DNA of 24,308 bases from a virus, in IMG/VR virus record IMGVR_UViG_3300020194_000756, positions 1-24,308 of that record. One strand, given 5' to 3'. This document shows, piece after piece, positions 10,047 to 21,029 of the stretch. The position numbers were made by a program, and so were the translations under genes. The first letter of the stretch is position 1, and the number at the start of each line of letters is the position of its first letter. The notes beneath the pieces were generated by a model that worked only from the letters and a program-made list of their open reading frames with translations, was not told where the DNA came from and did no database searches.

Positions 10047-10182
10047 GGTCAGACAACTCATTAACTATGTCTTTGAACTCGAAAGACGTGGCGAGATTTC
10101 AATGGATGACTGGTTTTCAATGGTCAATGATCTTGACAATTTCTTAGAACTACTAAACGAAAGGGAACACAATGGTCGGTAA
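10009..10182 (+). CDS. Small acidic helical protein (57 aa)
   Basis: A GTG at 10000 is possible, but the ATG at 10009 has GAAAGGTG at the right distance, so I choose it. It begins MTKQEEKTLLKTKVRQLINY and contains MDDWFSMVNDLDNFLELLNE. It is helical and acidic. It overlaps the start of the YqaJ-type gene by 11 bases, so it is part of the recombination operon. A role as an inhibitor or accessory of the nuclease would be speculation. Confidence 0.65.
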   Translation: MTKQEEKTLLKTKVRQLINYVFELERRGEISMDDWFSMVNDLDNFLELLNEREHNGR

Positions 10183-11134
10183 AGTCACACCGAACGACCA
10201 GTTATCCGCTTCTGAAGTACCTGTATTAATGGGTGCATCAAAGTATATGACGGTCAACGAACTACTAAAACAAAAGATGGATGTTATCTCAGGCATCGAT
10301 CCACCATTCACTAGCAATGAATCTATGGATTGGGGCAATAAGCTTGAAACTACCATCTTGAATGAATCATGCGCTAGGCTAGGGCTTGGCAATCCAAAGA
10401 CCACACACACGCAACCATATTTTCATAAGAAAATACCAATTGCATGCAGCCTTGATGGCACTGTCACAGGTGATGATCGAATCATCATGACAGACATTGA
10501 GAAAGGCATTGTGTGTGTCAATGGGGACGAGATACGCCTGGATGGCATGGGCGTAGTCGAAGCCAAACTCACTGCGCATGAAGTCGAGTCAGCAACAGAA
10601 CTCCCACTGTATCGTGGGCCATTGCAATTGCAAATGCAGATGGACATCACAGGTGCAAAGTGGGGTGCAGTGTGTGTCTTATATAAAGGCACAACTCTAA
10701 AAACTTTTGTATACCAACGCGACGAGGAAGTGATTGCTAAGATTCATGAAGCTGTCATTGATTTTCAACGACGCCTGGACAAATACAAAACCAACGATGA
10801 GGTGGAATGGTATGACATGGAAACGACCAAGGAAGCAGCATCGATCTTTGACCAAGCTGAAAAGGAAACGATTGTACTCGATGATGTAGAGGAAGATGTG
10901 AATAAAATCATAGAGTTACGTCAGATCCATGCAGACATCGAAGAGCAAATACAAAATCATGAGCTTAGAATCATGGATCGTATGCGCGACAATATGTATG
11001 CCATTTCAGGTCAATATAAAATCTCATGGCCAATGATCAATTATAAAGCGACACCTGAAAAGATCGTTCCAGCCAAGCCAGCGCGAACTGTGCGCCAATC
11101 TAAATTACGCATAAGGAGTGTAGACAATGGATGA
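10172..11134 (+). CDS. YqaJ-type recombination exonuclease
   Basis: A 320-residue nuclease of the PD-(D/E)XK superfamily, the partner of phage annealing proteins. Family landmarks are in order: SASEVPVLMGASKYMTVNEL (12-31), WGNKLETTIL (54-63, E59), the metal aspartate in CSLDGTV (D95), the catalytic V-E-A-K (E130, K132), and the helix LQLQMQMDITGAKWGAV (151-167, with Q152/Q154). A C-terminal helical region follows. It would resect linear dsDNA to give single strands for the ERF protein encoded two genes downstream. It overlaps its upstream and downstream genes by 8-11 bases. The fold assignment is strong; the exact polarity of digestion cannot be seen. Confidence 0.9.
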   Translation: MVGKVTPNDQLSASEVPVLMGASKYMTVNELLKQKMDVISGIDPPFTSNESMDWGNKLETTILNESCARLGLGNPKTTHTQPYFHKKIPIACSLDGTVTGDDRIIMTDIEKGIVCVNGDEIRLDGMGVVEAKLTAHEVESATELPLYRGPLQLQMQMDITGAKWGAVCVLYKGTTLKTFVYQRDEEVIAKIHEAVIDFQRRLDKYKTNDEVEWYDMETTKEAASIFDQAEKETIVLDDVEEDVNKIIELRQIHADIEEQIQNHELRIMDRMRDNMYAISGQYKISWPMINYKATPEKIVPAKPARTVRQSKLRIRSVDNG

Positions 11135-11312
11135 TTTACAGTACCTCTATGAAACGGTAGTACGTCAAGAGGAATATGAGCAAGATAAAAAAGATGATGA
11201 GATGTTTTTACAGATCATCAAGCGTCGAATCGTTGATAAACGTAGACGTAACCAATTAATATTAACTTACTTTGGAGAAAATTATGACAGAGAAAACTTT
11301 GGGGATTGCTAA
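11127..11312 (+). CDS. Small charged protein between exonuclease and ERF (61 aa)
   Basis: It starts 8 bases inside the end of the exonuclease gene and runs 29 bases into ERF. The product begins MDDLQYLYETVVRQEEYEQD and contains IIKRRIVDKRRRNQLILTYF, so an acidic helix is followed by a basic one. No motif is recognised. The overlap style fits the operon, though the last ten codons, shared with ERF, may not be important. Confidence 0.6.
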   Translation: MDDLQYLYETVVRQEEYEQDKKDDEMFLQIIKRRIVDKRRRNQLILTYFGENYDRENFGDC

Positions 11313-11748
11313 GGCTTTTGTCGAAGCACAAAAAGAGTTTGAAAAGACTGGATTAGAAGGCAAAAATCCACACTTTAGAAGCAATTATGCAAGACTCGAT
11401 GCTTGTGTTGCTGCGGTTAAACCAGCCTTAAACAAACATGGTATTGCATTAATACAAAAGACACACGAATGTGAGAATGGTGTCAAAGTAGAGACTATCT
11501 TTATGCATGAGACAGGTGAACAAATATCAGGTGGTTTATTGTATGTTCCTAGTGAACAACAGTCCCCGCAAAAGTATGGATCAGCTTTGACTTATGCGCG
11601 TCGATACAGCTTGCTGACTGCTTGTGGGGTACCACCTGAAGAGAAGTTAGATGATGATGCTGAAGTAGCAGAACAACCATACAGAGAAACAAAATCTATG
11701 GCTGAAAAACTACCACCATCAAAGGTGCTTGAAGTAAAAAAGTTTTAA
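11284..11748 (+). CDS. erf: ERF-family single-strand annealing protein
   Basis: A 154-residue recombinase. A TTG at 11272 is possible, but the ATG at 11284 follows GGAGAAAATT and gives the canonical N-terminus. The ERF core is complete: KNPHFRSNYARLDACVAAVK (27-46), ALNKHGIALIQ, METHxTGE-like HETGEQISGG (75-84) and SPQKYGSALTYARRYSLLTA (94-113). It anneals ssDNA produced by the exonuclease. The zero-frame product ends VLEVKKF at TAA 11746-11748, directly after the heptamer A AAA AAG. A -1 shift there joins it to the next ORF, giving a 234-residue protein. Confidence 0.93.
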   Translation: MTEKTLGIAKAFVEAQKEFEKTGLEGKNPHFRSNYARLDACVAAVKPALNKHGIALIQKTHECENGVKVETIFMHETGEQISGGLLYVPSEQQSPQKYGSALTYARRYSLLTACGVPPEEKLDDDAEVAEQPYRETKSMAEKLPPSKVLEVKKF

Positions 11749-11783
11749 GCCTCAATCTACCTGGCAAGGAACCGATTGAGGTT
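11721..11783 (+). promoter_or_regulatory. Candidate programmed -1 ribosomal frameshift signal
   Basis: Three elements are in order: SD-like AAAGGTG (11721-11727), the slippery heptamer A AAA AAG (11736-11742, read in zero frame as GTA AAA AAG), and a perfect 8-bp stem CCTCAATC (11750-11757) / GATTGAGG (11774-11781), extendable by G-U and A-U. The spacer is 7 bases and the zero-frame TAA lies within it. This is the architecture of E. coli dnaX. A -1 shift enters the frame of the 11799 ORF. Confidence 0.7.
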
Positions 11784-11798
11784 AAAGACAAGGATGCC

Positions 11799-11987
11799 AT
11801 GAAGAAGACTATGATTGAGATGTCACACAGAATCGGTAATAGTCAACTGCCACCTGAAGAAAAAGCAAAGAAGTTAACTGAATTCTTTGAGTTAAATAAG
11901 ATGGCACTCAGTGCATTAGGCCCTGATACATTCATGGATATTAAGAATGCGATCAGTGACATACTGAGAAAAATAAGCCAGGAGTAG
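11799..11987 (+). CDS. Downstream ORF, likely C-terminal extension of ERF by frameshift
   Basis: As an independent ORF it begins at ATG 11799 (MKKTMIEMSHRIGNSQLPPE), with AAGGA only 4 bases upstream, so weak independent initiation is possible. The same frame is open back to 11733 and continues ERF after a -1 shift, through VLSLNLPGKEPIEVKD and a further 62 residues. The extension is helical and charged, with LPPEEKAKKLTEFFELNKMA. No domain is recognised. It may modulate ERF oligomerisation or partner binding. It is followed by the next gene after 2 bases. Confidence 0.7.
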   Translation: MKKTMIEMSHRIGNSQLPPEEKAKKLTEFFELNKMALSALGPDTFMDIKNAISDILRKISQE

Positions 11988-16409: not shown

Positions 16410-17525
16410 CTATTTAAAGTATGGTCCTACTAACCATGTTACGGCACTGTATCGAGTTCCTGTTGTTACTGGCTCAACACCATGTATCATATAACTAGGA
16501 AATACTAACACAGTTCCTTTGCTTTGTGGTGGATAAAATACTCTACCATCAGCGTTAATAAAAAACTTACCACCTTCATAATCATCATTCAAAAATGCCA
16601 AGCATGTGAGCTTTCTTGTCTCTTCACTATGACTATGAAACGTATCTACATGTTGAGTGTAATGTCCTTCTGGTTTATATATTAATAACTCAGTTTGATT
16701 AGAATGAGTTATATGATATTGCCACCAATACTGGTTTGCATTTAATCCTGTTGATGTTAGTGTGGCACCAATGCCTACATTTTGTGGCAGTATAACTCTT
16801 TTAACATCTCTAATTGTTTTATCTATTTCTCCAGTATTGTTACCAATGTATGGTGGTTCTTTATTTATACTGTCTTGTGAGTATGTGTTAATTAAGTTAT
16901 TGCAAAAGTCATGAGACAAATGATTATCAAATACAGCACAATTAGTTAATGTTCGTTCAGTAAGTGTATTTTTAGAGACACCTAATGACTGACGTTTATC
17001 ATACTTCCATTCAGCATGTGGTCCATCAGCATCTACATAATGTAAGAATACTTGTGCTTGCCATTGACCTTCAGTATACTTTTCTCGCCAATGCTCAACT
17101 TCCATGCCACGATACAAAACGGCATCACCTACTTGCATATCTACTTTGTTACCTTCCATGTAGATAGACCATACGTCACCTTCAAAACCTAGTGTAATGG
17201 TTGCTGATATTTCACAGGCTGGTCTGTCTTTATGCTTTACAAGTTCGTCACCAGGAGCATATAATCTTGCGTATGAATAAGTTGGATATAATCTTTTACC
17301 ACAATGTTTTTCAAAGTGTGGTAATAAGTCTACTAACAACTGGTCAAATGTCTGTGTTCCATGTACAGCTTCTGACTTTGGGCATTGTATATCTTTTACT
17401 GTACGTCCGTTTACAACTAAATCTTTTAATGCTTGTGTTAATTCTGCACAGTTTTGTTCGTCTAAAAAGCTTTTTAAATGTACATAACTGTTTTGTTGAA
17501 AACTATCAATGCTTGTTTGATACAT
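16410..17525 (-). CDS. Tandem 2OG-Fe(II) dioxygenase
   Basis: A 371-residue protein with two jelly-roll oxygenase domains. Domain 1 (about 10-170): YARLYAPGDELVKHKDRPAC (H98-x-D100) and MEVEHWREKY (H145). Domain 2 (about 195-371): LLIYKPEGHYTQHVDTFHSH (H292-x-D294), LNDDYEGGKFFI, FPSYMIHGVEPV (H348) and TGTRYSAVTWL (R358 for 2-oxoglutarate). Domain 2 is complete. In domain 1 the usual Arg about ten residues after the distal His is not seen at the matching place (GQWQAQ). Such enzymes hydroxylate proteins or nucleobases; beside a tail fibre gene, virion or host-protein modification is plausible. Confidence 0.9.
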   Translation of the reverse strand: MYQTSIDSFQQNSYVHLKSFLDEQNCAELTQALKDLVVNGRTVKDIQCPKSEAVHGTQTFDQLLVDLLPHFEKHCGKRLYPTYSYARLYAPGDELVKHKDRPACEISATITLGFEGDVWSIYMEGNKVDMQVGDAVLYRGMEVEHWREKYTEGQWQAQVFLHYVDADGPHAEWKYDKRQSLGVSKNTLTERTLTNCAVFDNHLSHDFCNNLINTYSQDSINKEPPYIGNNTGEIDKTIRDVKRVILPQNVGIGATLTSTGLNANQYWWQYHITHSNQTELLIYKPEGHYTQHVDTFHSHSEETRKLTCLAFLNDDYEGGKFFINADGRVFYPPQSKGTVLVFPSYMIHGVEPVTTGTRYSAVTWLVGPYFK

Positions 17526-17819: not shown

Positions 17820-20800
17820 TTAATATTCCACTATTACTACACCACCACCACCTGTTCTATTAGGAGCGGGTAAAGATGTTGCTGAAGCTCCACCAGCACC
17901 TCCGCCATATAATCCCCCACTATTACGTGACAATCCACCTCCACCTAATATAGAAGATCCACCAGTACCTCCTCCTTGAGTAACACCAGGACCTGTTTGC
18001 GGACCTGGAAATGTCACCACACCAGCACTACCAGCTTGACCATCTATATTGATCGATCCACCAGAACCAGCACCTCCAGTCCCACCTATATATGTACCTC
18101 CAGCACCTCCACCAGTTGCAGAACAATAAGCTCCAAATGAAGAAGTACCGCCTGTTCCAGTGCTACCTGATCCAATTGTAACAGTTACGTTAGTGGCACT
18201 AGGAAACGGTACAACTTCTATAGCTGCTCCACCAGCACCTCCACCTCCTCCTTGTCCAGCCATTGGAGCTGGTGTAGGTCCAAAGGTTCCTTGTAAACCA
18301 CCACCACCACCACCACCAATTACTGTCACTTTAACTTTTTCTACTGTTCCTGGATTTGTCCATGTGCCTGGTGAGGTAAAAACTTCTATGTTGCTAAAGC
18401 CACCACCAGCTGCTAAAGTAGTCCATGTCATTGTTCCGTCACCATCAGACGCAAGGTATTGTCCAGCAGTACCATTGCCTGATACATTTAATTCATCTGC
18501 ACCAACAGAGTTGTCTGCAATTGTAGATGCGTTTACTTCATTTAATGTTGCAAGAGATCCTAGGCCTAATGATGTTCTCGCAGTAGCACCTGATTCTGCC
18601 ACCCATGTTGATCCATTACCAACAATAAAGTTTCCGTCAGTGTTTGCTAATCCACCAATAGCAGTTAAGTCTGCATCTAATGGTTGCTTGCCATCTAGTG
18701 CTGTTTGTAATCCATCAACATTACTAATAATGTGATTGTGTGAATCGTCTGCAATAGTTACTGCAATAGATGTAGTTCCACTTCCTGACACATCACCTGA
18801 CAATGTGATTGTTTGGTTTGCAGTTAAAACATTAGCACCACCTTGTTGTAAGTTTCCTGTGAAGTTTGCAGTAACATCATCATACTTAGCTGTGTCTGCA
18901 TCATATCCTTGAACAGTTACACCGATGTCAGCATCAACTACGATAGTTGCATCATAGCCCTGTACTGTGGATCCGATGTCTGATGAAGTTAATATATTTG
19001 CATCATAGGCCTGAACAGTAGATCCAATATCTGTATCGACTAGAACATTACTACCACCATTCTGAAGAGTACCTGTAAAGTTAGCAGTAGTGTCATCGTA
19101 TTTAGCCGTATCAGCATCGTAACCTTGTACACTTGTACCAATGTCTGCTGACTTAAGTATGGTTGCATCATATGCCTGGACTGTTGATCCTATGTCTGAA
19201 TCTAGTACAGCATCAGATCCTAATGCTGTATTAACATCAGTTGCAGTAAGTGTTACAGCACCTGTTCTGGTGTTAAATGAAGTTACTGCTCCTGATGCTG
19301 AGAATGCAGCAGCTTGCCATGCAGATCCATCCCATACATAAAGTTGCTCATCAACTGTGTTGTAATATAAAGCACCAGTTGTAGATGTGGTTGGAGCAGA
19401 AGATGCTGCACCTAAATATGTATTTGCAAATGTCACTACATCAGATACATTATCTGAAACAGTTGTAATGTCATCACTGATAGGACCAAGTGCTGTGATC
19501 TCTGTTGATAATCCAGCCACTGTACCTATGTCAGCTGCATCAGCAACAACTGTTGTAATATCAGATGAGAGTCCAGCGACAGTTGTAACATTAGCACTAA
19601 TGCCAGCTACTGTTGTAACATCTGCAATATTGGTTGCGGTCGTATTGACATTGGCTATATTAGTTGCAGTGGTATTCACGTTAGCTATATTAGTTGCAGT
19701 GGTATTCACATTAGCTATGTTAGTTGCGGTAGTGTTAATGTTTGTTTCGTTTGCGTTGACTGCATTGATGTTAGTTTCATTCGCTGCAACGGCACTCACA
19801 TCTGCACTGATTCCAGCTACAGTATTTACATCAGCAATGTTCGTAGCTACTGTGCCTATGTCAGTTCCATCTGCTGCAACAGTAGTGACATCTGATTCAA
19901 TGCCAGCGACTGTAGTAACGTCAGCACTAATGCCAGCAACAGTATTGATGTTAGTTTGATTTTCTACAGAAGGTGTAAGTTGATACCAAGTTGTTGTGCC
20001 AAGGTCATATACTTTCATGACATTGTTTGTTGTATCAAAGTATAATGCGCCATCGGCTAATGCATTACCATCATTGTCTAATGTAGGATCACTAGCTTTA
20101 GCACCAAGGTATGCATCATCAAAGTTATCGAACACGGCTTCAGCCGCTGCTTGTGCGGCCTCTGCTAATCCTTGTGCTGTTTCTGCTCCAGTCTGTGCAG
20201 TCTCTGCATTTGTTTCAGCAGTCTCTGCTCCAGTCTGTGCTAACTCTGCGGCTGTTTGTGCAGTTTCGGCTAAAGCTTGTGCGGCTTCTGCTGCTGTTTG
20301 TGCGGCTTCTGCATCTGTGGCACTTGCTTCTGCTGCATCTGCAATATCTTGTACTGATTCAGCATCAACCAGCACTGCCCATTTAGCAGCATCTGCATTA
20401 GAGTCAATCGGTAATGATCCTGAAGATGTGTGTGCAGTAAGACAGATGTAAACGTTTTCATTGCTTGTGTCTTTAACTAAGTCACGCTTATTGTATTCAA
20501 CGCCAGATGACCAGTTTCCACGGTAGTCACCAACTTGTTCACCAATGGTTGGATTACCATCTGCATCAAACGCTAATGTTTTGTTAGCACGATCCACATT
20601 GTTTGGCAATGTCATATTCACTGTAGTAGGATCTGTATTAGGCGCACGTAATGCACGATCAGATTGTTCTTGAACTTGTTGTACAAAGATTGTTTGGCTA
20701 TCAAACTCATCGTTCAAGGATGTAGCGAAGAGTGGACCACCAGTTGTAAAGTCTGTTGTTCTTTGAATTGTTCTATCGCCAATGATTGTAATTCGATCAG

Positions 20801-21029
20801 ACGCAGTAGGCGTGCTAGGAACATTAGTGCCAGTCACAATCGTAACAGATCCAGTTCCATCTCCATCAATGGATACAGTATAGTCTGTGGTTAGAGTAAG
20901 TTCTGTGTAGTTAAAGTATACAGCAATGTCAGTCTGTGCTAATACTTCGAATTCAAATGCGTAAGGGCCTACACCAGCTGAACCAGTGTAAACTATACGT
21001 CTCGTTGTGCTTGATATGTCGATTGCCAT
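17820..21029 (-). CDS. T7-type tail fibre protein with polyglycine tip
   Basis: A 1069-residue receptor-binding fibre. Residues 1-170 are the T7 gp17-type attachment domain (MAIDISSTTRRIVYTGSAGV; SLNDEFDSQTIFVQQVQEQS). Then come a carbohydrate-binding-like module around GNWSSGVEYNKRDLVKDTS, an Ala/Thr/Glu coiled coil (AAEAAQALAETAQTAAELAQ), and a long run of NIANVNTTAT and TVAGISADV repeats. After that come DIGSTVQAYDA repeats, a collagen-free shaft (LDGKQPLDADLTAIGGLA), and a C-terminal domain of about 170 residues with many G-runs (GTWTNPGTVEKVKVTVIGGG; final GGGGVVIVEY). The glycine-rich tip resembles polyglycine-sandwich adhesins of other phages and probably contacts the receptor. Confidence 0.93.
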   Translation of the reverse strand: MAIDISSTTRRIVYTGSAGVGPYAFEFEVLAQTDIAVYFNYTELTLTTDYTVSIDGDGTGSVTIVTGTNVPSTPTASDRITIIGDRTIQRTTDFTTGGPLFATSLNDEFDSQTIFVQQVQEQSDRALRAPNTDPTTVNMTLPNNVDRANKTLAFDADGNPTIGEQVGDYRGNWSSGVEYNKRDLVKDTSNENVYICLTAHTSSGSLPIDSNADAAKWAVLVDAESVQDIADAAEASATDAEAAQTAAEAAQALAETAQTAAELAQTGAETAETNAETAQTGAETAQGLAEAAQAAAEAVFDNFDDAYLGAKASDPTLDNDGNALADGALYFDTTNNVMKVYDLGTTTWYQLTPSVENQTNINTVAGISADVTTVAGIESDVTTVAADGTDIGTVATNIADVNTVAGISADVSAVAANETNINAVNANETNINTTATNIANVNTTATNIANVNTTATNIANVNTTATNIADVTTVAGISANVTTVAGLSSDITTVVADAADIGTVAGLSTEITALGPISDDITTVSDNVSDVVTFANTYLGAASSAPTTSTTGALYYNTVDEQLYVWDGSAWQAAAFSASGAVTSFNTRTGAVTLTATDVNTALGSDAVLDSDIGSTVQAYDATILKSADIGTSVQGYDADTAKYDDTTANFTGTLQNGGSNVLVDTDIGSTVQAYDANILTSSDIGSTVQGYDATIVVDADIGVTVQGYDADTAKYDDVTANFTGNLQQGGANVLTANQTITLSGDVSGSGTTSIAVTIADDSHNHIISNVDGLQTALDGKQPLDADLTAIGGLANTDGNFIVGNGSTWVAESGATARTSLGLGSLATLNEVNASTIADNSVGADELNVSGNGTAGQYLASDGDGTMTWTTLAAGGGFSNIEVFTSPGTWTNPGTVEKVKVTVIGGGGGGGLQGTFGPTPAPMAGQGGGGGAGGAAIEVVPFPSATNVTVTIGSGSTGTGGTSSFGAYCSATGGGAGGTYIGGTGGAGSGGSINIDGQAGSAGVVTFPGPQTGPGVTQGGGTGGSSILGGGGLSRNSGGLYGGGAGGASATSLPAPNRTGGGGVVIVEY
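19620..19740 (-). repeat. 30-bp tandem repeats in the tail fibre
   Basis: Near-identical 30-base units (GTTGCAGTGGTATTCAC plus TTAGCTATATTA on the plus strand) occur about four times, encoding TATNIANVNT. The copies are almost the same at DNA level, which points to recent expansion or recombination of the fibre shaft. Confidence 0.75.

Follow-up and report, generated by a model that had tools for sequence, protein, structure and literature searches.

Probable programmed frameshifting at the end of a phage erf gene

A programmed −1 ribosomal frameshift site very probably lies at the end of the erf gene in the viral DNA analysed here (24,308 nt of IMG/VR record IMGVR_UViG_3300020194_000756, hereafter the window), so that this phage single-strand annealing protein would be made both as a core and as an extended form. 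The case is carried by comparison with related loci, which at the sequence level shows the site itself, a −1 frame that behaves as coding, a tail with no usable start of its own, homologues in which core and tail are fused in frame, and selection on the arms of a stem. The features concerned, all on the + strand, are:

10172–11134 (+): YqaJ/RecE-like exonuclease gene 5′ of erf, its product a likely ERF partner (PHROG 434, E 5e-31; Pfam YqaJ, 2.9e-7)
11284–11748 (+): erf, zero-frame coding sequence, 154 aa, predicted annealing core and product 1 (Pfam ERF, PF04404; PHROG 2324 and 155, Erf-like)
11721–11727 (+): SD-like AAAGGTG, 8 nt 5′ of the heptamer, a possible but weak upstream stimulator (−3.4 kcal/mol)
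11736–11742 (+): slippery heptamer A_AAA_AAG, in phase (conservation in relatives)
11742–11987 (+): −1-frame tail, putative C-terminal domain (VLSLNLPGK...ISQE), giving product 2, a 234-aa fusion (homologues, substitution pattern, predicted fold)
11746–11748 (+): zero-frame stop TAA, 3 nt 3′ of the heptamer (stop position in relatives)
11750–11757 (+): 5′ arm of the candidate stimulatory stem, CCTCAATC (fold; arm codons with no or almost no synonymous change)
11774–11781 (+): 3′ arm of the same stem, GATTGAGG (fold; synonymous-change analysis)
11799–11801 (+): earliest ATG of the −1 tail (its codon 20), lying within the conserved domain (TTA, TTC and others in relatives)

The erf product belongs to the ERF family by its match to PF04404 (E 1.6e-23, 83.8 bits against a gathering score of 25), and the order of exonuclease followed by erf is common to the window and the phage MEP301. 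The gene ends in GTA AAA AAG TTT TAA, and the spacer between heptamer and stem is TTTTAAG (11743–11749), which contains the TAA. From 11742 the −1 frame reads VLSLNLPGKEPIEVKDKDAM...ISQE and stays open for 81 codons up to a TAG at 11985–11987. The original prediction had described the SD-like stretch, the in-phase A_AAA_AAG, the TAA-bearing 7-base spacer and the perfect 8-bp stem, and each lies where it was placed; its count of 81 open codons was reproduced, and its product sizes of 154 and 234 residues match the predicted translations. Elsewhere in the window, on the minus strand, are genes for a 371-aa protein with a 2OG-Fe(II) oxygenase domain (16410–17525) and for a 1069-aa protein with a weak match to the carbohydrate-binding domain CBM_5_12 (17820–21029).

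Ribosomes staying in frame would read one codon past A_AAA_AAG and terminate at TAA, which yields the 154-aa core. Some would slip back one base, both Lys-tRNAs re-pairing, a step probably aided in the clade of the window by the stem that starts after a 7-nt spacer, and perhaps also by the upstream SD-like stretch; reading 81 more codons, they would yield the 234-aa protein, with its C-terminal domain on a flexible linker. Both products presumably accumulate. Few heptamers are as shift-prone in E. coli as A_AAA_AAG, a property that reflects the shiftiness of Lys-tRNA with AAG in the A site (PMC4066793).

Conservation of the heptamer and of the shift layout

Relatives were collected by a tail search of viral contigs, which gave about 40–45 contigs with tail homologues, plus the cultured OM43 phage MEP301. 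The representative set holds 41 loci, 37 of them of the −1 type (window and MEP301 isolate included) and four in frame. Throughout the 37, the heptamer is followed by the tail in the −1 frame and by a zero-frame stop within 0–9 nt. An X_XXY_YYZ heptamer in the zero frame, as at programmed −1 sites, is present at 11736 and in 41/41 of these representatives found by tail homology (40 A_AAA_AAG, one A_AAA_AAA), against A_AAA_AAG at just 1/56 of the other Lys-Lys pairs in the same genes, so its retention exceeds chance. The codon preceding the two lysines is ATA, GTA, CCA, GCA or TCA; the residue varies (V/I/P/A/S) while the third base is constantly A. Lysine codons elsewhere in these genes comprise 377 AAA and 487 AAG.

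MEP301 has an ERF 54% identical and a tail 32% identical to those of the window. Its site reads CCA AAA AAG GCA TAA, with the tail likewise in the −1 frame, coding GISLSLPGKDPI... The GenBank ERF (MW452941.1, 2654–3297; gp06, 133 aa) ends at the zero-frame stop, and the gap between it and gp07 holds the −1 tail; gp06 is probably an ERF annotated too short. Conservation in relatives, the check named by the original prediction, was thus borne out for the heptamer and the downstream frame, MEP301 included, but the 8-bp stem and the SD-like stretch proved not to be universal.

The same layout emerges from a search made without tail information. A DNA pattern combining the ERF motif DDDGN, A6G and a nearby stop, which also returned non-ERF chance matches, recovered 11 ERFs with an in-phase heptamer and a zero-frame stop, and 11/11 carry a 79–83-codon −1 tail bearing an LPG[KR] motif. 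With a refined pattern, the results of which were pooled with the earlier loci and clustered at 60% identity, there are 64 ERFs in the shift layout (about fifteen clusters). The LPG motif is found in the −1 frame of 63 of these, the lone motif-less one being cut by the contig end, and tails reach at least 60 codons in 61; tails of the pattern-found ERFs include diverged sequences. The pooled set also contains 29 in-frame ERFs in four clusters, 28 of them with a −1 stop 2–4 codons 3′ of the junction, a count that is biased because the pattern itself demanded a heptamer with a stop close by, whatever the frame of that stop.

The −1 frame encodes a conserved domain without its own start

The conserved tail block [STA]LxLPGK begins two residues 3′ of the slip, ahead of any start codon, and in all representatives the alignments of the tail to its homologues start at residue 1–3, 5′ of any ATG. 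As is characteristic of programmed −1 sites, there is thus a conserved −1-frame product lacking its own start codon: no ATG, GTG or TTG precedes the LPGK block in the −1 frame of the −1-type loci, locus L110 (2990–3010) being the sole exception. There, an ATG in the tail frame sits at the junction (TAATG, AAAAAAGTAATGA), which makes reinitiation by stop-restart coupling possible at that locus.

Differences in the tail frame number 2222, 1205 and 4612 at codon positions 1, 2 and 3, and single changes within the window clade are synonymous in 2651 cases versus 1025 non-synonymous; this third-position excess and this ratio indicate coding-type substitution. The tail matched no family in Pfam or PHROGs, a tail-profile search of genome contigs gave no match, and searches of phage collections with the tails of other relatives returned MEP301 alone or no match.

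In the AlphaFold model of an in-frame relative (L121), a confident core is followed by a disordered segment (121–138) just 5′ of the slip site and by a confident C-terminal domain, modelled as a beta-hairpin and three helices (pLDDT about 95). The ERF core model matches Gp77 (9y6u) and, weakly, RAD52 rings. Modelled alone, the tail reaches a pLDDT of only 78 and matches, at 17% identity, the C-terminus of the SAK3 annealing protein A0A6J7X2S7 (Foldseek E 4.7e-3, TMq 0.89), although helical bundles match many things. PDB sequence matches of the tail were set aside as weak helical matches, as were the helical-bundle matches from VIA-align. Two facts stronger than those in the original prediction are that the tail constitutes a genuine C-terminal domain, which sister phages encode in frame, and that the in-frame genes retain the heptamer with a −1 stop close behind.

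In lambda Red-beta, residues 1–177 suffice for annealing, and a small C-terminal three-helix bundle binds the exonuclease and perhaps SSB (PMC9512822). By analogy, core-only and core-plus-domain subunits may mix in oligomers, of which only some subunits would carry the domain that docks exonuclease or SSB.

Candidate stimulatory elements

Downstream structure is common but not obligatory at programmed −1 sites, and an upstream SD-like stimulator is optional. The stem region of the window folds at −21.9 kcal/mol (z −2.58) and contains a perfect 8-bp stem 7 nt 3′ of the heptamer; 36/2000 synonymous randomisations fold equally well. Across the window clade, the stem-arm codons show a synonymous rate of 0.0 versus 0.335 (permutation p about 0.0003), or 0.022 (p about 0.0009) when codon 6 replaces codon 3, and the loop codons vary as does the rest of the tail. 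This stem is specific to the window clade: it is eroded in L106–L113 and absent in the MEP301 group, and synonymous randomisation gave no excess structure for MEP301, L106, L111 or L113, which rules out a universal stem.

Other clades, with CTG as the codon for Leu-4, have a 5-bp hairpin (GCCTG-N7-CAGGC) 6–7 nt 3′ of the heptamer. Its five pairs are intact in 13/13 distinct sequences through G-U, U-G and G-C to C-G exchange, and its covariation score was reached by 0/500 shuffles, which is support rather than proof because possession of the hairpin was itself the criterion for including a row and few events underlie the exchange. Both structures lie within the 5–8 nt typical of programmed −1 sites, though not every clade has one. 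On the 5′ side, L106 and L108–L112 have a perfect 6-bp hairpin, CGGAAA-N3-TTTCCG, ending a few bases before the heptamer; in L111 this stem is kept with an altered loop.

The SD-like stretch is the weakest element of the window site, its −3.4 kcal/mol being equalled by 9–14% of in-gene positions depending on the background. Over 63 sites such stretches rank at a median of 13% of in-gene positions, enriched overall and weak in the window and many other loci. Some relatives have stronger ones (AGGGAG, AGGAG, GGAGGTG), strong cases being L101, L123, L228, L216 and L319.

In-frame relatives and exchange of frames

Among the relatives found via tail similarity, L121/L122, L123, L125 and L126 encode core and tail as one ORF (...PVKK|QYSLNLPGKDPI..., i.e. 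...VKK|QYSLNLPGK). These loci keep A_AAA_AAG at the junction, where a −1 slip reaches TAG or TAA after two codons, and three of them have AGGGA 10–13 nt 5′ of the heptamer. The tree of fused proteins needs four changes of layout, three of which are forced by well-supported branches. Zero and −1 frame assignments thus appear to have been swapped at least three times, although core-tail recombination could mimic some of the swaps.

We tentatively suggest, at somewhat less than even chances, that selection maintains the pair of ERF forms itself, since the heptamer is kept while the shift flips between extending and truncating. Either configuration would give core-only and core-plus-domain subunits, and with them annealing rings with sub-stoichiometric domains for docking exonuclease or SSB.

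Two more in-frame ERF lineages (L164, L179, L186, L193 and relatives; L213, L304) have YTFYIPGKDP and ITLEIPGKDP tails. Each carries A_AAA_AAG where core meets tail, and the −1 frame there closes after 3–4 codons, the orientation of dnaX; both were found by the heptamer pattern, so heptamer retention in them is a biased count. More distantly, L005 (2900–2960), L006 and L007 encode ERFs that share 58% identity with the window core but continue, in frame, into a different C-terminal part. Their core/tail junction holds an A9 run (GCT GAA AAA AAA ATG) with a shifted-frame stop a few codons on, and truncation by slippage is possible there.

Alternative explanations

The same fusion could arise from RNA polymerase inserting or omitting an A within the A6 run, followed by normal translation of the edited mRNA. 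One added A would yield identical residues, slippage in Thermus dnaX takes place on nine A (PMC3711429), and longer runs do occur among the relatives (A7 in L101, L319 and L345, besides the A9 of L005–L007). In nearly all loci, however, the run is just A6, whereas the slippage runs cited exceed seven (PMC3711429), and the G at the seventh position is kept in 40/41 representatives despite AAA being a common lysine codon in these genes. The X_XXY_YYZ phase, needless for polymerase slippage, is constant, and conserved or covarying hairpins stand at ribosome spacing. For these reasons we consider transcriptional slippage improbable and infer that the shift is ribosomal.

Translation of the tail as a separate protein, by reinitiation past the ERF stop, would agree with the contact between that stop and the tail frame and with the TAATG of L110. 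It is nevertheless very improbable in general: the other −1-type loci have no start codon before the LPGK block, restart at the window ATG (11799) is ruled out by its lack of conservation and its position within the domain, and the in-frame relatives make tail and ERF as a single protein. The existence of those relatives might also suggest that one base is simply missing, through sequencing or assembly error or gene decay, from a gene that is truly in frame. Some 40 independent contigs, along with a cultured phage, show the same layout across many diverged lineages, and substitutions in the tail frame are of the coding type; this refutes an error or pseudogene and leaves the account next to no credibility. 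Programmed −1 frameshifting, the reading put forward in the original prediction, is instead supported jointly by the conservation of heptamer and frame, the coding character of the tail and the in-frame homologues.

Comparison with known systems

The decoding mechanism is already known from dnaX, IS elements and tail chaperones. New, as far as we could find, are a −1 slip in the gene of a single-strand annealing protein and an exchange of roles between zero and −1 frames around a kept heptamer. That no ERF frameshift had been described, as originally supposed, agrees with the literature searched, PRFect paper included, where none was found for ERF or SSAP, although absence there is not proof; the paper on MEP301 is silent on both ERF and frameshifting. 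If the reading is true, annotation as truncated is wrong for many ERFs of uncultured phages and for that of MEP301, and ribosome slippage would determine the mixture of subunits in a recombination ring, as it does in clamp loaders and tail chaperones. The reading would also bear on a question raised for lambda Red, namely how a trimeric exonuclease partners an annealase ring with some twelve subunits (PMC9512822). Relatives with in-frame and swapped-frame layouts offer natural controls.

P22 Erf and the ERF proteins of PHROG 155 and 2324 share the core family and the architecture of a core plus a C-terminal part. Outside the window group, the ERFs examined encode any C-terminal part in one frame. 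The resemblance of the tail to the C-terminal domain of lambda Red-beta lies in predicted architecture rather than in sequence, a three-helix bundle after a flexible linker; the ERF domain would be optional via decoding and may bind exonuclease.

In the phage tail assembly chaperone gpG/gpGT and in IS3/IS911, a −1 shift before the zero-frame stop gives a C-terminally extended minor product. The −1 frameshift class that includes tail chaperones and IS elements has been described (PMC4066793, PMC3711429). The window shares this extending layout and differs in function, its gene encoding a recombination protein.

E. coli dnaX (tau/gamma) offers the closest parallel in the elements of the site, with A_AAA_AAG, an SD-like stretch 5′ and a stem 3′, and in outcome, a single gene yielding a ring-forming DNA protein both with its C-terminal domain and lacking it. 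The window site would work like dnaX, yet it is not a member of the Rfam dnaX frameshift element, an Rfam search with E up to 1 giving no match; gene, stem sequence and spacing are unrelated, and the shift extends the product where that of dnaX truncates it. The in-frame sister ERFs, in contrast, share the orientation of dnaX exactly, the −1 shift there truncating the protein.
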